Positions 31,642 through 41,050 of a DNA stretch of 41,408 nucleotides are shown here, piece after piece. The notes beneath the pieces are model-generated. The model ran no database searches, was not told the DNA's origin, and worked only from the letters and a program-made list of their open reading frames with translations. Position numbers and translations under genes: made by a program. Position 1 is the stretch's first letter. Every line of letters starts with the position of its first letter. This DNA comes from an uncultured Pelagibacteraceae bacterium (GTDB taxonomy: Bacteria; Pseudomonadota; Alphaproteobacteria; Pelagibacterales; Pelagibacteraceae): assembly GCA_902630915.1 (NCBI GenBank), contig CACOWD010000005.1:1-41408 (forward strand). Direction: 5' to 3'.

Positions 31642-32439
31642 TTAATCAGCATTTAAACTAGGTATTCGCTGTCGTAGTTTTTTTGGCAGATAAGGATTGA
31701 TAGAAGCTGTAATAACCCCTTCTGATTTTCTTAATTCTTTAATTATTTCTCCATCTGGAGAAATTATTAATGAATGTCCAAAAGTTTTTCTACCGTTGTA
31801 ATGTGTTCCTCCTTGAGCTGGAGCAAATATATAGCAAAAATTTTCTATAGCTCTTGCTCTTAATAAAGAGTGCCAATGTTTTTTACCTGTTGTTTCGGTA
31901 AATGCTGAAGGCACAGATAAAAATAATGATCCTAATTTAGATAATTTTCGATAAAGATTTGGAAATCGAAGATCGTAACAAATGCTTAAACCAATCTTTC
32001 CCCAAGGTAAATTAAATGTCTTAATCTTGTTTCCTGCATTAAAACATTTAGACTCAAAATATTTTTCTTTTTTACTTAAGATAACATCATACATGTGAAT
32101 TTTGTCATAGTAAGTTTTAATTTTTCCTTTTTTATCAATTAGAACTGATCTATTTACTAATTTGTTTTTAGAAACCTTTATTATCAATGATCCTATTAAA
32201 ATCCATTTTTTATATCTTTTTGCAAGTTTTCGGATACCATTAAGATAAATATCGTTTTTCATTGAAGTGCAAACTCTTAAAAGTTCTTTTTTATCTAATG
32301 AGAAGTGAGAAGAAACTTCTGGAGTAATTATAAAATCAGTTTTTTGTTTAATTGCTTTAATAATAAGTTTAGTAGTTTTGTTTAAGTTAGAGCGGATATC
32401 ATTATTTGATCTTAATTGAATACAAGAAATGCGAAACAT
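31642..32439 (-). CDS. carbon-nitrogen hydrolase (Nit1/deaminated-glutathione-amidase-like)
   Basis: A 265-residue nitrilase-superfamily amidase. The catalytic triad reads Glu41 (T-P-E-V-S), Lys113 (Y-D-K-I-H) and Cys154 (S-I-C-Y-D-L-R-F-P). P-S-A-F-T-E-T-T-G, H-W-H-S-L-L-R-A-R-A-I-E and A-P-A-Q-G-G are typical of Nit1/YbeM-type enzymes that hydrolyse deaminated glutathione, rather than of N-carbamoylputrescine amidase. I start at ATG 32439, which overlaps the spermidine-synthase-fusion stop by 1 base. A longer frame exists upstream but lies within that gene. The coupling to a polyamine/MTA operon is notable: an omega-amidase or polyamine-linked amide substrate is possible. Confidence 0.85.
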   Translation of the reverse strand: MFRISCIQLRSNNDIRSNLNKTTKLIIKAIKQKTDFIITPEVSSHFSLDKKELLRVCTSMKNDIYLNGIRKLAKRYKKWILIGSLIIKVSKNKLVNRSVLIDKKGKIKTYYDKIHMYDVILSKKEKYFESKCFNAGNKIKTFNLPWGKIGLSICYDLRFPNLYRKLSKLGSLFLSVPSAFTETTGKKHWHSLLRARAIENFCYIFAPAQGGTHYNGRKTFGHSLIISPDGEIIKELRKSEGVITASINPYLPKKLRQRIPSLNAD

Positions 32440-33479
32440 TACTTCATTATAGATGAAGCAAAATTCCATTTACAGTCAAAACTAGGAATATAAGCACCAG
32501 ATAATCTAACATTTCCAAAACTTTTTTCTAAAACTTTACACCAATTATCAACTTGTTTTGGTTTTTTGTCCTGACTTCCAACTTGAGCAGTTATCACGCC
32601 ACCTTTTTTTAGTATTCTTTTTAAGCCTTTCATATTTTTTTTTGCTAAATCAATGCAATATTGGTCGTCATTTAAATCTACAAAAATTTTATCATATTTC
32701 GAATCTTCTATTTCTTTTATACTTTTAAACGCATCTCCCCAAAAAGTTTTAATTTTGTTACTTTTTTTAACTTTTGAACAAACTTTTGGTAAATGACGAT
32801 AACAAACATCTACAATCTCTGGATCTAGTTCAAACCAGTCGATGTAGTTGGAGTTATTCTCTAAACAGGCTCTAGCTACTCCTCCATCTCCTCCGCCGAT
32901 AATTGCAACATTGTTAATTTTTTTACTTAAATCGTAACTAGATTTGAAAAAATTTGAGCTATAGATTTTTTCATCTTTTTCAGCTACTTGAATTTCATGA
33001 TCTATAAACAAGGCGTGACCAAACTCTTCTAGGTCCATAATTTCAACAAACTGACCGACTTTAGAAGTGAACTTCTCTAAAACATCTTTGACCACATAGA
33101 ATTTCTTTTGTCCTGGTGTGCTATAAATATCATCATAGAGACCTATGCTACTTCGATCAAAAGCATTGGTGACAACTCTTTGATGGTCAATCTCTTTTCT
33201 TAAAATTTTAAGAGCGACTTTAGGATTCACTTTTCCGCATGTAAAAAAATCAAAGCTTATAACGCCTCTTTCAGGAAAAGTATGAAAACTAAAATGACTT
33301 TCTGACAATAAAGCAACTAAAGTAAAGCCTTGTGGTTCAAATTTGTGGGAAGCAACGTTTAATATTTCTACTTTTGCAGCTTTTGCTATTTTATAGATAA
33401 CTTTTTCGTAAAATTCAGGTGAATAATCTTTTTTAACACCAAGAAAATCGATGGTAATGTGTTCACCAACTTTAATCAT
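32439..33479 (-). CDS. fused S-adenosylmethionine decarboxylase-like / spermidine synthase-like protein
   Basis: One 346-residue frame holds two enzymes. Residues about 1-115 match pyruvoyl-dependent AdoMet decarboxylase class 1B: the autocleavage site L-L-S-E-S-H (Glu60-Ser61), His66, and Cys81 in F-F-T-C-G. Residues about 120-346 match spermidine synthase: A-I-I-G-G-G-D-G-G (192-200), an acidic F-E-L-D strand (Glu217) and W-G-D-A (Asp249). The usual D-x-x-D-P-x-G-P catalytic loop is D-L-N-D-D-Q (268-273), keeping two Asp but losing Pro and Gly. The simple reading is making decarboxylated AdoMet and transferring aminopropyl, releasing MTA, which the upstream genes consume. Substrate specificity of both halves is uncertain. 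Confidence 0.85.
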   Translation of the reverse strand: MIKVGEHITIDFLGVKKDYSPEFYEKVIYKIAKAAKVEILNVASHKFEPQGFTLVALLSESHFSFHTFPERGVISFDFFTCGKVNPKVALKILRKEIDHQRVVTNAFDRSSIGLYDDIYSTPGQKKFYVVKDVLEKFTSKVGQFVEIMDLEEFGHALFIDHEIQVAEKDEKIYSSNFFKSSYDLSKKINNVAIIGGGDGGVARACLENNSNYIDWFELDPEIVDVCYRHLPKVCSKVKKSNKIKTFWGDAFKSIKEIEDSKYDKIFVDLNDDQYCIDLAKKNMKGLKRILKKGGVITAQVGSQDKKPKQVDNWCKVLEKSFGNVRLSGAYIPSFDCKWNFASSIMK

Positions 33480-33485
33480 TAAAAA

Positions 33486-34130
33486 CTATCCTTTTTTATA
33501 ATTTTTAAATTTTTCTAAGACAATTTTCATTTCTTTTTTTGAAAGAATCTTAGGTATTCCAATTCTTATGGCATTTATATATTGATGGCAAATATTTTCG
33601 ATCTCCTGAGCAAGCTCAAAAGTTTTTTCCATATTTTCTCCGAAGGCAACCTGGCCGTGATTAGCAATCAAACATGCTGTTCTATTTTTTAATGCTTTGA
33701 TAATATTTCTTGAAAGATTTTTTGTTCCAAAAGTAGCGTATTTACTACACTTAATGTCTTCTCCACCTGCTACTGCAACCATATAGTGAAAAGCTGGGAT
33801 ACTTTTTTGATGAGTAGAAACAGCTGTAGCACAAGTAGAGTGAGCATGGACTATTGCTTTAGCCTCTTTTTTATTCACATAAATATCTTGATGAAATCTC
33901 CATTCTGAGGATGGTTTGCCTTTTTTTTTATCATAAAAACCTTTAAGCGAAACAAAGATAATGTCTTTTGGTTTTAAAGACGAATATTTTCTTCCTGATG
34001 GAGTAATATAAAAACCATCCACTCCTTTTTCTTTTGATCTGACAGATATGTTGCCTGATCTTAAAGCAGACAGATTAGTGATGTTTAATTTTTTAGAATA
34101 TTTTATTACTTCAGCTTTTAATTTACTCAC
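33486..34130 (-). CDS. class II aldolase, fuculose-1-phosphate-aldolase type (candidate methylthioribulose-1-phosphate aldolase)
   Basis: A 214-residue zinc aldolase strikingly like E. coli FucA: G-N-I-S-V-R, P-S-S-E-W-R-F-H with Glu76, metal ligands His95, His97 and His158, Y-A-T-F-G-T, and a C-terminal V-L-E-K-F-K. No fucose genes are present. Instead it sits between mtnA and the spermidine-synthase fusion and overlaps mtnA by 4 bases (GTGA; GTG start). In this context it probably acts on 5-methylthioribulose 1-phosphate. Either it splits it to dihydroxyacetone phosphate and methylthioacetaldehyde, as the Ald2 enzyme of the DHAP shunt does, or less likely it dehydrates it like MtnB. Fold is certain; substrate is inference. 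Confidence 0.8.
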   Translation of the reverse strand: MSKLKAEVIKYSKKLNITNLSALRSGNISVRSKEKGVDGFYITPSGRKYSSLKPKDIIFVSLKGFYDKKKGKPSSEWRFHQDIYVNKKEAKAIVHAHSTCATAVSTHQKSIPAFHYMVAVAGGEDIKCSKYATFGTKNLSRNIIKALKNRTACLIANHGQVAFGENMEKTFELAQEIENICHQYINAIRIGIPKILSKKEMKIVLEKFKNYKKG

Positions 34131-35197
34131 TTGAATAGACCTTTTAAACCTTTTTCCGAAGCTTCACAAATTCCTTTTTCTGTAATTAACCCTGTAACAT
34201 ATTTAGCAGGTGTTACATCAAATGCTAAGTTCATTGATTTACTTTTCTCTGGGTATATTCTTACTTTTGTAACTTGATTATTTTTGTCTATACCTTCTAC
34301 GTGAGATAGCTCTTGAGAATTTCTCTCTTCAATTGGTATTTGTTTATGATCTTTTATATTCCAATCTATTGTCGAGCTAGGAAGGGCTACGTAGAATGGA
34401 ACATTGTTATCTTTTGCTGCTAATGCTTTTAAATAAGTTCCTATCTTGTTGCACACATCGCCGTTGGACAATGTCCTATCAGTTCCAACAATACAAATAT
34501 CGACTTTACCTCGTTGCATAAGTATTCCTCCAGCATTATCTGTAATTACAGTATTTGGAATTCCCTCTTCATTTAGTTCAAAAGAAGTTAAGTTCGCGCC
34601 TTGATTTCTTGGTCTTGTTTCATCAACCCAGACATGAAGTTTTAATCCTTTTTGGTGAGCAAGATAAATTGGCGAAGTAGCTGTACCCCAATCTATAGTA
34701 GCTAACCATCCAGCATTACAGTGAGTTAAAATATTAACTGTATCTTTTTTTTTATTAGAGATTTCTTCAATAATTTTAAAACCATTTAACCCTATTTTTT
34801 TACAGAAACTAACATCTTCTTCTACAATATCTTTTGCTTCATCAAGTGCTAACTTAAGAATATCTTTATCATTAACACCAGATAATTTTTTCATCATTCT
34901 ATCTACAGCCCATTTTAAATTTATTGCTGTTGGTCTTGACGCTATTAATTCCTCACTAGATTTTTTCAAAAAAGATAAATCCTTTTTTTCGATTATTGAT
35001 AAAACTAAACCATATGCAGCTGTAGCACCAATAAGAGGAGCTCCCCTTACCTCCATAGTTTTAATTGCATTGATTGCATCTTTTATAGTTTTTAAATCTT
35101 TAATTATAAATTGATGAGGTAATTTTGTTTGATCAATTATCTTAACTAAATTATTTTCAAACCAAATAGTTCGGTAAGATTTATTTTCTATCCTCAT
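34127..35197 (-). CDS. mtnA: 5-methylthioribose-1-phosphate isomerase
   Basis: A 356-residue member of the eIF2B-like isomerase family. It carries the catalytic Cys160 in T-H-C-N-A-G and Asp240 in G-T-D-R-T, exactly the active-site pair of MtnA. R-G-A-P near residue 51 and N-K-I-G-T-Y near 250 are also conserved. It converts methylthioribose 1-phosphate, the product of MtnP, to methylthioribulose 1-phosphate. The start overlaps the mtnP stop by one base (TAATG), and its own stop overlaps the aldolase start by four, indicating strong coupling. Confidence 0.95.
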   Translation of the reverse strand: MRIENKSYRTIWFENNLVKIIDQTKLPHQFIIKDLKTIKDAINAIKTMEVRGAPLIGATAAYGLVLSIIEKKDLSFLKKSSEELIASRPTAINLKWAVDRMMKKLSGVNDKDILKLALDEAKDIVEEDVSFCKKIGLNGFKIIEEISNKKKDTVNILTHCNAGWLATIDWGTATSPIYLAHQKGLKLHVWVDETRPRNQGANLTSFELNEEGIPNTVITDNAGGILMQRGKVDICIVGTDRTLSNGDVCNKIGTYLKALAAKDNNVPFYVALPSSTIDWNIKDHKQIPIEERNSQELSHVEGIDKNNQVTKVRIYPEKSKSMNLAFDVTPAKYVTGLITEKGICEASEKGLKGLFK

Positions 35198-36075
35198 TAT
35201 TTTTTATTAAGAACTCTTCCCGCTATATTATTGAGTTTTTTGATTGTTTTTTTAGTTCTTAATTTTTCATCAGTAATAATAGCAACATTTAAACAATCAT
35301 TTGCAGGATCTTTTTCTACTGAATAATTTTTAAAAGTTTTGATTATTTCTTTGATCATGTTTTGTGCATTAGCCGCATTTTTCATTAAAGTTTGAATTAC
35401 CATACTTACATCAACTTCATCATGATCCGGATGCCAACAGTCATAATCCGTTACCATTGCAACAGTACTATATCTAATTTCTGCCTCTCTTGCTAATTTA
35501 GCTTCGGGCATATTAGTCATACCAATTACATCAGCTCCCCAAGATCTATATAAATTTGACTCGGCTAAAGTAGAAAATTGAGGTCCTTCCATTACAACAT
35601 ATGTACCTCCAAATTGATAATTAATATTTAATTTCTTTAATGCAGCCTCGCAACAATTCGAAAGTCCTGGACTTGTAGGTTTAGCCATTGAAACATGGGC
35701 TACTATTTCTTCATTAAAAAATGTTTTTATTCTTGAAAATGTCCTGTCAATAAATTGGTCTACAATTACAAATTTTCCTGGTTCTAAGTTTTCTTTAAGA
35801 GATCCTACCGCAGATACTGAGATTATATCTGTAACCCCTAACTGTTTCATCGCATCAATATTTGCCCTAAAATTTATATTTGATGGATTTATTTTGTGAC
35901 CTCTTGAATGCCTGGGAATAAAACAAATTTCTTCTTTTCCAATACTAGCTAATAAAATTTCATCAGAAGGTTTTCCCCAAGGAGTATTAATTTTTTTCCA
36001 TTTTGTTTTTTCAAAGCCATCCATTTTGTAAAGGCCGCTGCCCCCAATTATCCCTAACTTTCTTTTTTTCATCAT
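35197..36075 (-). CDS. mtnP: S-methyl-5'-thioadenosine phosphorylase
   Basis: A 292-residue trimeric-type nucleoside phosphorylase. Landmarks are G-I-I-G-G-S-G-L-Y at the N-terminus, R-H-S-R-G-H (phosphate site), V-V-M-E-G-P-Q-F-S-T, and T-D-Y-D-C-W, whose aspartates select 6-aminopurines as in human MTAP. It splits MTA, the by-product of polyamine synthesis, into adenine and methylthioribose 1-phosphate. It is the first gene of the minus-strand operon, and its start is 41 bp from the divergent apt gene that can reuse the adenine. ATG 36075 or the adjacent ATG 36072 may be the start. Confidence 0.93.
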   Translation of the reverse strand: MMKKRKLGIIGGSGLYKMDGFEKTKWKKINTPWGKPSDEILLASIGKEEICFIPRHSRGHKINPSNINFRANIDAMKQLGVTDIISVSAVGSLKENLEPGKFVIVDQFIDRTFSRIKTFFNEEIVAHVSMAKPTSPGLSNCCEAALKKLNINYQFGGTYVVMEGPQFSTLAESNLYRSWGADVIGMTNMPEAKLAREAEIRYSTVAMVTDYDCWHPDHDEVDVSMVIQTLMKNAANAQNMIKEIIKTFKNYSVEKDPANDCLNVAIITDEKLRTKKTIKKLNNIAGRVLNKK

Positions 36076-36116
36076 TTAATTATTAATGCTTTTTTGTTAG
36101 AACTTGAAGCATAAAT

Positions 36117-36644
36117 ATGGATTTAAAAAAATACATTCGATCTATTCCAGACTATCCGAAAAAGGGAATTTTATTCAGAGACATCACTACTTTAATAAAA
36201 GATCCCGAAGCATTTAAGTTTACAAATGACAAAATAATTGAAATTGCAAAAAAGATGCAATTTGATAAGGTTGCTGCTATTGAGTCTAGAGGTTTTGTTT
36301 TCGCTTCTACAGTTTCTTATTCTTTAAATAAACCTTTTATTTTATTAAGAAAAAAAAATAAATTGCCTGCAAAAACTTACTCAGTAGATTTTACTTTGGA
36401 GTATGGTGAGGCTACAATTGAAGTGCATAGAGACTCTATTAATAATGGAGAAAAAATACTTGTAATCGACGATCTTATCGCAACTGGGGGTACGGCTGAG
36501 GCTGCGGCAAAATTAATAAAAATTTCAGGCGGTATTGTAGCTGGTTTTATTTTTGTTATTAATCTTTTTGATCTTCCGGGAAATAAACTCCTTAAAGATA
36601 AAGGTTTTGAAACTGAGTGCCTCATAGAGTTTCCTGGTCATTAG
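36117..36644 (+). CDS. apt: adenine phosphoribosyltransferase
   Basis: A 175-residue type I phosphoribosyltransferase. The start D-L-K-K-Y-I-R-S-I-P-D-Y-P-K matches Apt, F-R-D-I-T-T follows, and the PRPP loop is V-I-D-D-L-I-A-T-G-G-T near residues 120-130. It turns adenine into AMP. Being divergent from mtnP, which releases adenine, suggests a shared salvage purpose. Its stop overlaps the stop of the convergent SDR gene (4 bases). Confidence 0.95.
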   Translation: MDLKKYIRSIPDYPKKGILFRDITTLIKDPEAFKFTNDKIIEIAKKMQFDKVAAIESRGFVFASTVSYSLNKPFILLRKKNKLPAKTYSVDFTLEYGEATIEVHRDSINNGEKILVIDDLIATGGTAEAAAKLIKISGGIVAGFIFVINLFDLPGNKLLKDKGFETECLIEFPGH

Positions 36645-37525
36645 ATATTTTTTATAAAATTTTGGATATAATTTTTGAGACTTATTTTTCCAAAATGTTT
36701 ATATATTTTGTTAGACAAATTCTTATCAGTTAAAGCAGACACATACCTTTCACCCTCTCTTTTAGGTAAGTACTTGATTTTAGATTTAAACAATCTAGCA
36801 ACTTCTATAATAGAGTAAGATTTTTTATTAGAAATGCTATAATGTCTGCATAAATTTTTTTTCCAAGCTAAATAGCAAATTTTTATTGTGTCATCGATAT
36901 GCGTAAACCTTCGAGTTTGAGTACCTGGTCTTACAACAGGTAGTGGTTTTCTTTTTTTATGATGATCTTCAAATATTCCTATCACTGTTGACATTTTCCC
37001 ACTACAAATTTGATGAGGTCCATATACATTATAAAAATAAATTACCTCATATTTAAAATTAAACCACTTCTTTAGATTTTCAAGTAATTCAAGATTTTTT
37101 GCTTTTGTAAAAGCATAAGGAGATAAATTTTTATCATTTCCTTTATTCCCTAATGATGCTGAAGTAGCAGAATAAATTAGTTTTATTTTATTTTTCAAAC
37201 AAAAATTGAAAACTGAGCTGGATCCTACTGAATTCGATTCAATGCACTCATTCATTTTTGAAAAACTTTGATAAATTCTAGCAAACTCTCCAAAATGGAA
37301 AACAGATTTTATTTCTTTAGGTTTGTTGATTAATTTTGAGATATTTTTTGTGCTACCTTTTATGTATTTCACCCTTTTATTCTTTAAATGATTTTTTTTA
37401 AAACCAGAGGAATAATCGTCTAAACTTATTATGTTATAATTTGTCTTTTTTAAAAAAAATTTAATTAGATTAGTACCAACAAAACCAGCACCACCAGTTA
37501 TTAAAATTTTTTTATTTTTTTTCAT
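36641..37525 (-). CDS. NAD-dependent sugar epimerase/dehydratase (extended SDR)
   Basis: About 294 residues from ATG 37525, chosen over an upstream TTG (37561) because it directly precedes the Rossmann start M-K-K-N-K-K-I-L-I-T-G-G-A-G-F-V-G. Ser and the Y-x-x-x-K pair occur as S-A-T-S-A-S and P-Y-A-F-T-K. The protein resembles UDP-glucose 4-epimerase/UDP-GlcNAc epimerase-type SDRs but the substrate is unknown. It belongs with the adjacent GT2 gene, 32 bases upstream on the same strand, and lies beside the dTDP-rhamnose genes, so surface glycan synthesis is the likely role. Confidence 0.83.
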   Translation of the reverse strand: MKKNKKILITGGAGFVGTNLIKFFLKKTNYNIISLDDYSSGFKKNHLKNKRVKYIKGSTKNISKLINKPKEIKSVFHFGEFARIYQSFSKMNECIESNSVGSSSVFNFCLKNKIKLIYSATSASLGNKGNDKNLSPYAFTKAKNLELLENLKKWFNFKYEVIYFYNVYGPHQICSGKMSTVIGIFEDHHKKRKPLPVVRPGTQTRRFTHIDDTIKICYLAWKKNLCRHYSISNKKSYSIIEVARLFKSKIKYLPKREGERYVSALTDKNLSNKIYKHFGKISLKNYIQNFIKNI

Positions 37526-37557
37526 TATGAATTTATTATATTTATGGTTTCTATAAA

Positions 37558-38385
37558 TCAATCTAATGATGGTCTATACCAAGATTTTCTTCCTAAAACA
37601 GAATTTATTATTCCACTCATTCGACTAAAGTATATATCTCTTTTTTTAATATTAAAGGTTAATTGATAAAAAAAAGTTTTAATAATCGAGGAAATAAATT
37701 TTGGCATAATAATAATTAAGGCTATTAAAAATCCTTTATATTTTTTATGAAAATAATAAGTAGACCACATCCAATGCCAATTTCTATTTTTTTCAAATTC
37801 ATTTTTATTATTTTTATCAACTGATCCAGATCCTTCATGATTTATTTTTATATTTTTTGACAAAATTATCTTTCCTTTATTCATCTTAACCTTTTTGCAT
37901 AAGTCAATTTCCTCAAAATAAAGGAAAAAATTTTCGTCAAAAAAAGAATTATTAAATTTTTGGATATTAAAAAAAATAGCAAATCCTTTTAAATTATCTA
38001 CTTCAAATTCTTCAGAATTAACTATAATATTACTTTGGTTATTTGCTGGCCCTATTAACCAAAAATCTTGAAATTTTTTTGCAGTACTTAAAAAATTACT
38101 AATACAATTTTTTTCTAATTTAGTATCTGGATTCAAAACTAATGCATATTTTGTCTTAACTTGGTTTAGGCCAATATTATTCCCTCTTGCATATCCTAAA
38201 TTCTCTCTTGCCAAAATACATTTTACATTACTATATTTTGACTCAATTAGTCTTTTGAATTCTTGATTATTTGAATTTTCGACTACTATTATATTTATAT
38301 CATCAGGAATAGAGTTAAGACACGCTAATATTTTATTTTCACTTCTATATGTAACAATTACTACAGTAAGATTGTTTGATTCCAT
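37558..38385 (-). CDS. glycosyltransferase family 2
   Basis: A 275-residue GT-A inverting transferase. V-V-I-V-T-Y-R-S at the N-terminus, E-N-L-G-Y-A-R-G-N-N near residue 60 and the L-N-P-D-T-K metal/nucleotide motif near 90 resemble rhamnosyltransferase-like GT2 proteins. A hydrophobic segment near residue 220 may anchor it to the membrane. It diverges from rmlB over 75 bases. A role in transferring rhamnose or another sugar made by the next operon is plausible. Confidence 0.85.
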   Translation of the reverse strand: MESNNLTVVIVTYRSENKILACLNSIPDDINIIVVENSNNQEFKRLIESKYSNVKCILARENLGYARGNNIGLNQVKTKYALVLNPDTKLEKNCISNFLSTAKKFQDFWLIGPANNQSNIIVNSEEFEVDNLKGFAIFFNIQKFNNSFFDENFFLYFEEIDLCKKVKMNKGKIILSKNIKINHEGSGSVDKNNKNEFEKNRNWHWMWSTYYFHKKYKGFLIALIIIMPKFISSIIKTFFYQLTFNIKKRDIYFSRMSGIINSVLGRKSWYRPSLD

Positions 38386-38420
38386 TTAATAATAATATTT
38401 GATTTTGAAAGATAATTCTT

Positions 38421-38449
38421 TTACTAATTTAACTCATTAGTCGTATAAT
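38421..38449 (+). promoter_or_regulatory. putative sigma-70 promoter for the rml operon
   Basis: TTACTA (38421-38426), a 17-base spacer and a perfect TATAAT (38444-38449). The ATG is at 38461, so the transcript would have a leader of only about 4-6 bases. Confidence 0.5.
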
Positions 38450-38460
38450 TCTAAAAATTT

Positions 38461-39486
38461 ATGAAAAAAATCATTGTTACAGGTGGATCAGGGTTCATAG
38501 GTAGCAACTTAGTTAATTATCTTATTAAAAAAAAATACTTTGTAATTAATATAGACAAACTTACATACTCATCAAATAAATATTTTAGTGATATTAGAAG
38601 TAAGAAAAATTATAAATTTTTCCAATTTGATATAAACAATAAGAATAAGCTAATAAAAGTTATAAGAAAATTTAAACCGAAAGCAATTTTTAATTTAGCT
38701 GCAGAAACACATGTGGATAGATCTATTGATGGACCTAGAGATTTTATTCATACAAATTTAAATGGAACATTTTATTTATTGGAGTCTTTAAGATTTTTAC
38801 AAAAGAAAAAAATTAAACCTAGGCTTATTCATATTTCAACAGATGAGGTATATGGAGACATTAAAAGGAATTTAAGATCTGACGAAAATTATAAATATGA
38901 ACCTAGTTCCCCTTATTCAGCTACAAAAGCTGGCGCAGATCATTTAGTAAAATCATATATTCGCACATACAAATTAAATGCTGTAATATCAAATTGTTGC
39001 AACAATTATGGTCCATTTCAATTTCCAGAAAAATTAATACCAAAAATGATTGCTAATATTTTAAATAATAAAGAGCTACCAATTTACGCAAAAGGAGAAA
39101 ATTCTAGAGAGTGGATACATGTTCAAGACCATTGTGAAGCCTTATTAAGGCTATATTTGAAAGGTAAGACGGGAGAAAATTATAACGTTGGGTCAGGAAA
39201 AAATTTAAGGAACATTGATTTGGTTAAAAAAATATTAAAAATCTTTAAGTCTTTGGGAGTCAAAATAGGAAAAAAATCTAAAATCAAATTTGTGAAAGAT
39301 AGACCAGGTCATGATTATAGATATGCTCTTAACAATAAAAAAATTTTGCGAAAATTAAAATGGAGTAATAAAATTTCTTTTGAAGATGGTTTAAGAAATA
39401 CAGTAAAATGGTATTTAGCTAATGAGACGTTTATTAAACAGATAAAAAGAAAAAAATACGAAAAAAGATTTGGCTTAAGTACATGA
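38461..39486 (+). CDS. rmlB: dTDP-glucose 4,6-dehydratase
   Basis: A 341-residue extended SDR. T-G-G-S-G-F-I-G-S-N near residues 7-16 binds NAD. A-A-E-T-H-V-D-R-S-I, I-S-T-D-E-V-Y-G-D and Y-S-A-T-K-A-G-A-D (catalytic Tyr/Lys) are RmlB signatures, with R-E-W-I-H-V-Q-D-H in the C-terminal part. It removes water from dTDP-glucose to give the 4-keto-6-deoxy sugar. The protein is lysine-rich, reflecting the high AT content of this end of the window. Its stop overlaps the rmlA start by 4 bases. Confidence 0.95.
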   Translation: MKKIIVTGGSGFIGSNLVNYLIKKKYFVINIDKLTYSSNKYFSDIRSKKNYKFFQFDINNKNKLIKVIRKFKPKAIFNLAAETHVDRSIDGPRDFIHTNLNGTFYLLESLRFLQKKKIKPRLIHISTDEVYGDIKRNLRSDENYKYEPSSPYSATKAGADHLVKSYIRTYKLNAVISNCCNNYGPFQFPEKLIPKMIANILNNKELPIYAKGENSREWIHVQDHCEALLRLYLKGKTGENYNVGSGKNLRNIDLVKKILKIFKSLGVKIGKKSKIKFVKDRPGHDYRYALNNKKILRKLKWSNKISFEDGLRNTVKWYLANETFIKQIKRKKYEKRFGLST

Positions 39487-40352
39487 TAAGAAAAGGAATT
39501 ATTTTAGCTGGTGGTTTGGGTTCAAGAATGAGTCCTTTGACTAAAGCAATAAACAAACAACTTCTACCACTTTATGACAAACCCCTAATTTTTTATCCTT
39601 TATCAATTTTAATGCTTGCAGGAATTAAGGATATTTTAATAATTGTAAACAAAGGTCAACTTGGTCAATTCAGAAAGATTCTTCCTGAAAAAAATAATTT
39701 AGGTATAAAAATAGTATATAAAGAACAACCTAAACCTGCTGGCTTACCTCAAGCTTTCACAATAGGTGAGAAATTTATCGGAAAAGATAACGTTTCTTTA
39801 ATTTTAGGAGATAATTTTTTCTACGGTCAAAGTTTATCAAATACTCTTAAAAAGAATTTATATTTTAAAACAGGTGCTAAGATTTTTTTACACCCAGTTA
39901 AAAATCCACAAGATTATGGTGTTGCTAATATAAATAACAAAAAAAAAGTTATTAATCTTAAAGAAAAACCAAAAATAACCAAATCTAACCTTGCTGTTAC
40001 AGGTCTTTACTTTTTTGACAACAAAGTTATCGAGTTTTCAAAAAAATTAAAGCCTTCAAAAAGAGGAGAGTTTGAAATAATTGATCTTTTAAATATTTAT
40101 AGAAAAAAAAATAAATTAAAAGCTGAATTCATTGGAAGAGGTGGAGCTTGGTTAGATACTGGAAATATCGATGATTTTTATAATGCTTCTAATTTTATTG
40201 CAGCTATTGAAAATAGACAAGGTCTTAAAATTGCTTGCTTAGAAGAAATTTCATTTAGAAATAAATGGATTACTAAAAAAGAAATTAATCATGCAATAAA
40301 ATTTTATGGTAATTGCGATTACTCAAAATATCTTAAATTATTAATTGAATAA
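39483..40352 (+). CDS. rmlA: glucose-1-phosphate thymidylyltransferase
   Basis: A 289-residue nucleotidyltransferase that forms dTDP-glucose from glucose 1-phosphate and dTTP. The N-terminal signature G-I-I-L-A-G-G-L-G-S-R-M and K-Q-L-L-P-L-Y-D-K-P are clear. G-D-N-F-F-Y-G near residue 110 holds the metal-binding Asp, and E-K-P-K near 160 is conserved. Length and sequence are standard for RmlA. It overlaps rmlB (4 bases) and the next gene (1 base, TAATG), so the operon is coupled. Confidence 0.95.
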   Translation: MIRKGIILAGGLGSRMSPLTKAINKQLLPLYDKPLIFYPLSILMLAGIKDILIIVNKGQLGQFRKILPEKNNLGIKIVYKEQPKPAGLPQAFTIGEKFIGKDNVSLILGDNFFYGQSLSNTLKKNLYFKTGAKIFLHPVKNPQDYGVANINNKKKVINLKEKPKITKSNLAVTGLYFFDNKVIEFSKKLKPSKRGEFEIIDLLNIYRKKNKLKAEFIGRGGAWLDTGNIDDFYNASNFIAAIENRQGLKIACLEEISFRNKWITKKEINHAIKFYGNCDYSKYLKLLIE

Positions 40353-41050
40353 TGTTTAAAGTTCTCGTAACAGGATCTGATGGCAGATTTGGAAGGGTGC
40401 TTAAAAAATTTGATATAAATAAGAAATTTATCTTTAAAAATAAAAAACAGCTTAATATTTTATCTGAAAGATCAATTACTAATAATATTAAAAAGTATAA
40501 ACCTAATTGTATTTTGCATTTAGCAGGTCTTTCTCGGCCAATGAAAATACATGAAATAAATATTTCTAAAAGTATAGATTTAAATATTATTGGAACTTGC
40601 AATATTGTTAAAGCTGCAGCCAAACATAACATTAAAATAATATATCTTTCAACTAGCTATGTTTATGAGGGCACAAAGGGTAATTACAGTGAAGATGATC
40701 CAGTTAAACCTTGGAATAATTACTCTCGATCAAAGCTTGGTGGCGAATGTGCAGTAAACATGTATAAAAATTCACTTATTATAAGACTTTGTATGACTGA
40801 AAAACCTTTTATACATAAAAAAGCATATTCAAATGTTAAATCAAATTTTCTTTTTCAAGAAGATGCTGCAAAAATTATTTTAAAAGTATTAAAAAAAAAA
40901 GGAATATTAAATATTGGTGGAAAAAGCCAAACAATTTATAATTTTGCTAAAAAGCATAATAAAAAGATTAAGAAAATTTTTTCTAAAGGAGAGTTTCCTT
41001 TTAGAACTGATATGAGTTTAAAAAAATTAAAAAAAGTTTTAAAATCATGA
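40352..41050 (+). CDS. short RmlD-like sugar nucleotide reductase (dTDP-4-dehydrorhamnose reductase-like)
   Basis: A 232-residue SDR. V-T-G-S-D-G-R-F-G starts the Rossmann fold, L-S-T-S-Y-V-Y-E-G gives the catalytic Thr/Ser strand, and Y-S-R-S-K-L-G-G-E supplies Tyr/Lys. Position between rmlA and rmlC argues for dTDP-4-dehydrorhamnose reductase. The protein is about 55-60 residues shorter than typical RmlD and much of the substrate-binding C-terminal part is reduced, so it may instead be a related reductase or epimerase. It overlaps the next start by 4 bases (ATGA). Confidence 0.72.
   Translation: MFKVLVTGSDGRFGRVLKKFDINKKFIFKNKKQLNILSERSITNNIKKYKPNCILHLAGLSRPMKIHEINISKSIDLNIIGTCNIVKAAAKHNIKIIYLSTSYVYEGTKGNYSEDDPVKPWNNYSRSKLGGECAVNMYKNSLIIRLCMTEKPFIHKKAYSNVKSNFLFQEDAAKIILKVLKKKGILNIGGKSQTIYNFAKKHNKKIKKIFSKGEFPFRTDMSLKKLKKVLKS

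Follow-up and report, generated by a model that had tools for sequence, protein, structure and literature searches.

How do SAR11 bacteria dispose of the methylthioadenosine (MTA) that their synthesis of spermidine would release? The question is raised by an operon on a 41,408-nt stretch of DNA from an uncultured Pelagibacteraceae bacterium (contig CACOWD010000005.1; this whole stretch, rather than the operon alone, is called the window, and positions are counted along it), in which a gene for a fused S-adenosylmethionine (AdoMet) decarboxylase and aminopropyltransferase (speDE) follows mtnP, mtnA and the gene of a class II aldolase. The operon is best read as an instance of the known dihydroxyacetone phosphate (DHAP) shunt placed with its MTA source, and it is very probable that the SAR11 operon couples the synthesis of spermidine, and probably also of spermine or thermospermine, to this shunt. 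What is added to the known system is an interchangeable slot between apt and speDE, together with a fusion of an aldolase to a dehydrogenase.

Five genes, presumably co-transcribed, run along the minus strand: mtnP (MTA phosphorylase, 35197..36075), mtnA (methylthioribose-1-phosphate isomerase, 34127..35197), the aldolase gene with its GTG start (33486..34130), whose product is a predicted methylthioribulose-1-phosphate aldolase of the FucA-related, Ald2/DrdA-like type, speDE as the MTA source (32439..33479), and a gene for a nitrilase-family amidase resembling Nit1 or deaminated glutathione amidase (31642..32439, from the ATG at 32439; the longest open reading frame, ORF, starts at 32469). 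On the plus strand, apt (adenine phosphoribosyltransferase, 36117..36644) diverges from the operon. Overlaps amount to 1 base between mtnP and mtnA, 4 between mtnA and the aldolase gene and 1 between speDE and the amidase gene; a gap of 6 bases separates the aldolase gene from speDE, and the 41 bp between apt and mtnP (36076..36116) are the likely start site of both transcripts. These six genes, with their strands, overlaps and gaps, had been described in an earlier note on this DNA, and re-reading the window reproduced them to the base. Gene order, protein families, conservation and the catalytic residues of the aldolase are seen directly. No Rfam match at gathering scores, and no riboswitch, was found in the window.

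In the proposed pathway, the SpeD-SpeE fusion would consume decarboxylated AdoMet and release MTA, which MtnP would cleave with phosphate to adenine and methylthioribose-1-phosphate. Apt would convert the adenine to AMP, MtnA would isomerize methylthioribose-1-phosphate to methylthioribulose-1-phosphate, and the FucA-type aldolase would split the latter into DHAP and 2-(methylthio)acetaldehyde, to be reduced or oxidized by an enzyme from outside the operon. Adenine and DHAP are the predicted returns, and the pay-back of polyamine costs that the earlier note saw in the operon may or may not include the sulfur; the aldolase substrate and the fate of the aldehyde and of the sulfur are what we infer. 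The earlier idea that gene order mirrors the flow of metabolites holds for mtnP, mtnA and the aldolase gene, but the MTA-producing speDE comes after these three. It had also been supposed that the aldolase finishes the route within a self-contained module. This was overstated, because by known chemistry the aldolase should yield 2-(methylthio)acetaldehyde as an end product for which the operon offers no enzyme: no dehydrogenase for this aldehyde is encoded in the window operon, a fused dehydrogenase being present only in 14 fusion-bearing relatives.

The arrangement was followed across 148 genomes of the order of genome G004, the Pelagibacterales (70% completeness requested, completeness values unreported), and 100 loci from 98 of them were fetched for synteny. 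Matches were found to mtnA in 88 genomes, to MTA phosphorylase in 86 (85 over the cut-off), to AdoMet decarboxylase in 99 and to ald2-like genes in 78 (E<=1e-10; 74 strong, with G041 and G133 cut by contig ends). The decarboxylase was present in 86 of the 88 mtnA genomes versus 13 of the 60 without mtnA (both, 86; mtnA alone, 2; decarboxylase alone, 13; neither, 47; Fisher p 4e-24, kinship ignored). Wherever a locus held both genes, ald2 and speDE were adjacent on the same strand with the aldolase directly before speDE (73/73, 71 within 20 bp). Furthermore, of the 81 loci with both apt and mtnP, 79 have the two no more than 250 bp apart, 78 of these with apt on the opposite strand, and ald2 is equally close to mtnA in 64 of the 72 SAR11 loci that carry both. 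The claims that polyamine synthesis is coupled to MTA salvage and that gene order is conserved in SAR11 both find support in this synteny.

It is possible, though unlikely, that the trio of mtnP, mtnA and the aldolase gene mainly disposes of 5'-deoxyadenosine from radical AdoMet enzymes, by 5-deoxyribose salvage of the DrdA type, and that the link to speDE is secondary. A trio of this kind has been shown to do so in Bacillus thuringiensis, and its enzymes accept both substrates (PMC6079011, which like PMC3870299, PMC8437039, PMC10986504, PMC11107197 and PMC12632272 is cited for the available part of its text). The same enzymes may do both, which would make this explanation compatible with coupling to spermidine synthesis; against it stand the near-constant company of mtnA and the decarboxylase and the invariant adjacency of ald2 and speDE.

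Closer to the window, a scan of genome contigs covered 507 relatives, the best 80 of which were retained, all titled Pelagibacteraceae or Pelagibacter. In 80 of 80 the gap between the aldolase gene and speDE was 2-10 bp, so that this junction was never opened, and in 75 of the 75 measured apt and mtnP were separated by 38-42 bp; the steadiness of these two gaps indicates an arrangement beyond chance. mtnA overlapped the aldolase gene in 59 of 79 relatives, with inserts of 0.9-2.1 kb in the other 20, and mtnP was joined to mtnA (gap <=2 bp) in 18 of 77, with a gene of about 147 aa in between in 54 and larger inserts in five. Compactness, as claimed by the earlier note, is thus true of the window but is the minority form among relatives at the mtnP-mtnA junction. 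Insertion of cargo genes at both junctions in many relatives would suit the reading that streamlining of the genome next to a variable region, and no functional tie, brought these genes together. This reading is highly improbable, since ald2 and speDE stay joined despite the cargo in near relatives and across the order, and since the aldolase/dehydrogenase fusion is present in 14 of the 15 mtnA genomes that lack ald2.

Family scans of the window proteins backed the gene names given before, more weakly for the aldolase, the aminopropyltransferase domain and the amidase. The phosphorylase and isomerase of a DHAP shunt are both present, MtnP scoring 445 bits on NF006492 (cut-off 437) and MtnA 425 bits on TIGR00512 (cut-off 279); Apt reached 200 bits on TIGR01090 (cut-off 185.85). 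PF02675 and PF01564 occur in one chain in the SpeD-SpeE protein, in which the decarboxylase domain scored 93.5 bits on TIGR03330 (cut-off 75.65), while the aminopropyltransferase domain passed PF01564 (83.5, gathering score 22.9) and, with 121 and 96 bits on the NCBIfam speE models, did not reach their cut-offs of 260 and 249.55. A fusion of this kind in Ca. Pelagibacter was reportedly described by Green in 2011. In a protein search with 8000 candidates scored, the 120 listed were all at least 89% identical, and no distant named relative was among the matches listed.

The aldolase passes PF00596, is linked to mtnA and has an intact active site, being identical to E. coli FucA at Glu73, His92, His94, Tyr113, His155 and Tyr209, which we take to be the catalytic residues. 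The retention of these residues makes an aldolase much likelier than an MtnB dehydratase. MtnB belongs to the same superfamily and its model matches at 69.8 bits, but this does not reach its cut-off (137) and is much less than the 200 bits obtained on FucA-type models. Moreover, canonical methionine salvage with its other genes elsewhere in the genome, as an MtnB would imply, finds little in the relatives: acireductone dioxygenase (ARD, MtnD) was over its cut-off in 0 of 148 genomes, with one weaker match (G013, 21.8 bits, cut-off 27), and the RuBisCO family (MtnW or RuBisCO-like protein) reached its cut-off in 0 of 148, which leaves the MTA-isoprenoid shunt likewise without its RuBisCO-like protein in these relatives. 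The predicted lack of canonical salvage was thereby upheld in the relatives for these two families. The aldolase also alternates with the aldolase/dehydrogenase fusion. An MtnB identity was rejected on scores and residues, and of the alternatives considered here it is the least credible.

Several points weigh against the proposed coupling to a DHAP shunt. The aldolase lies under the cut-off of all 25 NCBIfam models listed (30 matched), and the best-scoring of these, its nearest models, are L-fuculose-phosphate aldolases. One mtnA-linked aldolase shares 56% identity with E. coli FucA, so that specificity rests on context. In a tree FucA falls on a long branch and SAR11 ald2 requires 3 changes, without being demonstrated to form a single clade; sequence alone is insufficient to settle Ald2 versus FucA specificity. 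The association tests are uncorrected for kinship, absences across the 148 genomes are soft because completeness is unreported, and the absence of canonical salvage covers ARD and the RuBisCO family, MtnB, MtnC and MtnX not having been searched for.

Since the closest characterised structures are fuculose-phosphate aldolases, the enzyme might act on scavenged fuculose- or rhamnulose-1-phosphate, its position in the operon being accidental. The neighbourhoods make this very hard to credit. In a class-level survey of 289 genomes (cut-offs E<=1e-25 for ald2-like genes and E<=1e-100 for the fusion), 84 carried ald2-like genes, and 20 of these loci were fetched (the 19 strongest outside the SAR11 genomes already fetched, plus G385); 18 of the 20 genes lay within 250 bp of mtnA and the other two within 250 bp of mtnP, with no mtnA. 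The same proximity to mtnA was seen in the great majority of SAR11 loci (above). Inspection of the window ORFs by eye revealed no genes for fucose or rhamnose catabolism, and no family search for such genes was made.

If the aldolase serves MTA salvage, what occupies its place in genomes that lack it? The best explanation is that SAR11 genomes have, between apt and speDE, a slot for MTA disposal that is filled by one of three alternatives. The first, found in the window, is mtnP-mtnA-ald2. The second consists of mtnP and mtnA with a RhaEW-like fusion of a class II aldolase and a short-chain dehydrogenase, a 677-aa protein first met beside speDE in mtnA genomes without ald2. This fusion was present in 14 of 148 genomes, all with mtnA and none with strong ald2: among the 88 mtnA genomes 73 had strong ald2, 14 the fusion, none both and only G136 neither, and among the 60 genomes without mtnA there was no fusion and one strong ald2 (G041, at a contig edge). 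In 13 of the 14 genomes 86-109 bp separate the fusion from speDE, and the two genes are on opposite strands. The fusion is within 20 bp of mtnA in 10 of the 13 loci holding both and 1.3-9 kb away in G089, G090 and G125; in G113 mtnA and the fusion fall on separate contigs. In G016 (locus L145) the run is apt-mtnP-mtnA-fusion, with the fusion after mtnA on the same strand, and AdoMet decarboxylase was not matched in this genome. The gene that comes next after the fusion there is agmatine-deiminase-like (under its cut-offs).

The third filling was seen in genomes with the decarboxylase but without mtnA, 10 of 13 of which were fetched; the other three (G012, G033, G082) have weak, short decarboxylase matches. 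In eight (G017, G032, G038, G069, G071, G122, G147, G150) the place between apt and speDE is taken by a nucleosidase-like gene (below its curated cut-offs in G071, the only one scanned), and no mtnP, mtnA or strong ald2 match was found genome-wide in these eight. In such lineages MTA salvage may therefore be trimmed to adenine recovery. Of the remaining two fetched, G041 is cut at ald2 and G101 is broken over contigs.

A quick tree of speDE (93 rows) required 7 changes of the fusion label, at least 4 of them forced by well-supported branches. By contrast, all SAR11 fusion proteins but that of G016, 13 of 14, formed one clade (quick tree of 62 rows, with long branches and composition warnings). 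A single SAR11 version of the fusion thus seems to have moved between lineages, or to have been replaced repeatedly. speDE, which itself adjoins the slot, may have moved along with it.

The fusion is not confined to SAR11. At class level it was found in 49 of 289 genomes, five of which (G182, G248, G271, G326, G346) also carry an ald2-like gene (Fisher p 9e-4, kinship ignored), so that exclusion is not strict in the class; in G346 and G248 the fusion lies beside mtnA or mtnP with the ald2-like gene also present. All 49 loci were fetched. In 27 a same-strand mtnA was no more than 3 kb away, in 5 there was mtnP but no mtnA, and 17 had neither, with mtnA elsewhere in the genome for 4 of the 5 and 14 of the 17. 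The 27 of 49, a count without a baseline for mtnA frequency in the class at large, ties the fusion family to mtnA well beyond SAR11, and the 17 loci without a local link to mtnA or mtnP may serve other sugars.

Two SAR11 fusions were scanned and scored 446.5 and 458 bits on the RhaEW model TIGR02632, under its cut-off of 567.75, and were over the cut-off of NF006192. Both domains nevertheless carry the presumed catalytic residues, with roles that we assigned by eye and by familiar rules: in an alignment of 51 proteins (49 from the class survey and 2 from SAR11), Glu125, His139, His141 and His200 of the presumed aldolase site are kept in 49-50, and Ser562, Tyr575 and Lys579 of the dehydrogenase, with Asp461 at the cofactor site, in all 51. 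Asp461 suggests NAD as the cofactor. RhaEW of Chloroflexus cleaves rhamnulose-1-phosphate and oxidizes lactaldehyde with NAD, showing no activity with NADH (PMC3870299), and by analogy the fusion would oxidize 2-(methylthio)acetaldehyde to (methylthio)acetate, making it a candidate for the aldehyde step after cleavage of methylthioribulose-1-phosphate. We put at about even the chance of the full proposal, that a RhaEW-family fusion replaces Ald2 in MTA salvage in SAR11 and widely in Alphaproteobacteria, that one chain cleaves methylthioribulose-1-phosphate and then oxidizes the aldehyde with NAD to (methylthio)acetate rather than 2-(methylthio)ethanol, constituting an oxidative branch of the DHAP shunt and its missing enzyme, and that SAR11 swaps fusion, Ald2 and nucleosidase beside spermidine synthesis.

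These systems can be set against those already described. The DHAP shunt (MtnP, or Pfs with MtnK, then MtnA and Ald2) of Rhodospirillum rubrum, Rhodopseudomonas palustris and E. coli ATCC 25922 uses the same enzyme families, and the same products, adenine, DHAP and 2-(methylthio)acetaldehyde, are predicted for SAR11. In Rhodopseudomonas, where the MtnP-MtnA-Ald2 shunt is known, a putative alcohol dehydrogenase and then unknown enzymes follow Ald2, and the sulfur of MTA reaches methanethiol and presumably methionine (PMC5893883); in the E. coli version (PMC10986504, PMC12632272) it accumulates as 2-methylthioethanol (PMC10986504). The SAR11 operon differs in that speDE, the MTA source, comes after the aldolase gene, and in that apt, for the recovery of adenine, is divergent. 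None of the 20 class-level ald2 loci fetched showed such a SpeD-SpeE neighbour; in one of them (L298) a weak and partial match to speDE lies at about 3 kb. DrdK-DrdI-DrdA of B. thuringiensis likewise pairs an isomerase with a FucA-like aldolase and also takes methylthioribose in vitro, but its entry enzyme is a kinase rather than a phosphorylase, and the available text mentions no polyamine gene for it (PMC6079011). RhaEW (L-rhamnulose-1-phosphate aldolase/lactaldehyde dehydrogenase, PMC3870299) has the domain layout of the SAR11 fusion, but the two SAR11 fusions scanned are under the TIGR02632 cut-off, and the SAR11 fusion neighbours mtnA and speDE, or mtnA and the agmatine-deiminase-like gene in G016. 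Canonical methionine salvage (MtnA-B-C-D or MtnW-X) shares its first two steps with SAR11, but ARD and the RuBisCO family were not over cut-off in the relatives.

For SAR11 itself, SpeD-SpeE fusions are active in E. coli, where spermidine, spermine and thermospermine were made, and the available text leaves neighbouring MTA genes untreated (PMC11107197). Polyamine metabolism, including a possibly reversible SpeE, has been described, with MTA appearing once in the main text, in a figure legend, and mtn genes absent from it (PMC8437039); a single mention of methylthioribose counted for this paper lies outside the main text. In the open-licence PMC literature, to which subscription journals and supplements do not belong, no paper on SAR11 with the DHAP shunt and none on RhaEW together with methylthioadenosine was found. 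Fig. S2 of PMC8437039, on polyamine gene locations, may already show the neighbourhood, so that an earlier description is possible.

The amidase is probably a passenger. It passes PF00795, its nearest model is deaminated glutathione amidase NF043013 (210 bits, cut-off 500) and its best solved relative is a NitFhit protein. Its membership of the operon holds in near relatives, where it lies within 65 bp of speDE in 69 of 76, but not across the order, since among 95 order-level speDE loci it was on the fetched stretch in 32, within 250 bp of speDE in 16 of these. An ABC-transporter gene adjoins speDE in 73 of the 95 loci. It is the first of a run in which, in L139:8408-10670 and others, a family-3-type solute-binding protein gene and two permease-like genes follow speDE at the position of the amidase; the relative in L061 matches SBP_bac_3.

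Among the inserted genes, one representative of the roughly 147-aa ones at the mtnP-mtnA junction (L020:6488-6931, starting Met-Pro) was scanned and is PF14832 (Tautomerase_3, cis-CaaD-like), the others being recognised by size and first residues only; the window has no tautomerase gene there. PF14832 was matched in 25 order genomes out of 148, and 21 of these also have one or the other kind of aldolase (p 0.007, kinship ignored); it lies between mtnP and mtnA in 7 of the 25 loci fetched and elsewhere in the rest, several near a thioredoxin-like gene. A tautomerase as pathway enzyme is kept as a lead only. Inserts between mtnA and the aldolase gene at L001:7075-8001 and L002:6871-8001 encode an alpha/beta-hydrolase-like protein and a protein without a Pfam match, respectively. 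A sulfatase-like gene (one scanned, under cut-offs) directly follows mtnA in G089, G113 and G136 (L144:12398-13981, L146, L147). Beyond apt, window positions 36641-41050 hold genes that by eye resemble nucleotide-sugar and glycosyltransferase genes, with presence and orientation varying among relatives.

SAR11 bacteria depend on reduced sulfur. What they do with MTA determines the fate of the sulfur invested in spermidine: retention, excretion or conversion into volatile methanethiol. Among the bacteria of the ocean they are described as very abundant (PMC8437039). With the interchangeable slot and the aldolase/dehydrogenase fusion, the aldehyde step becomes testable: in the lineages where it stands in for Ald2, the fusion is a concrete candidate for this step, and the swaps in the slot offer natural comparisons between SAR11 lineages.

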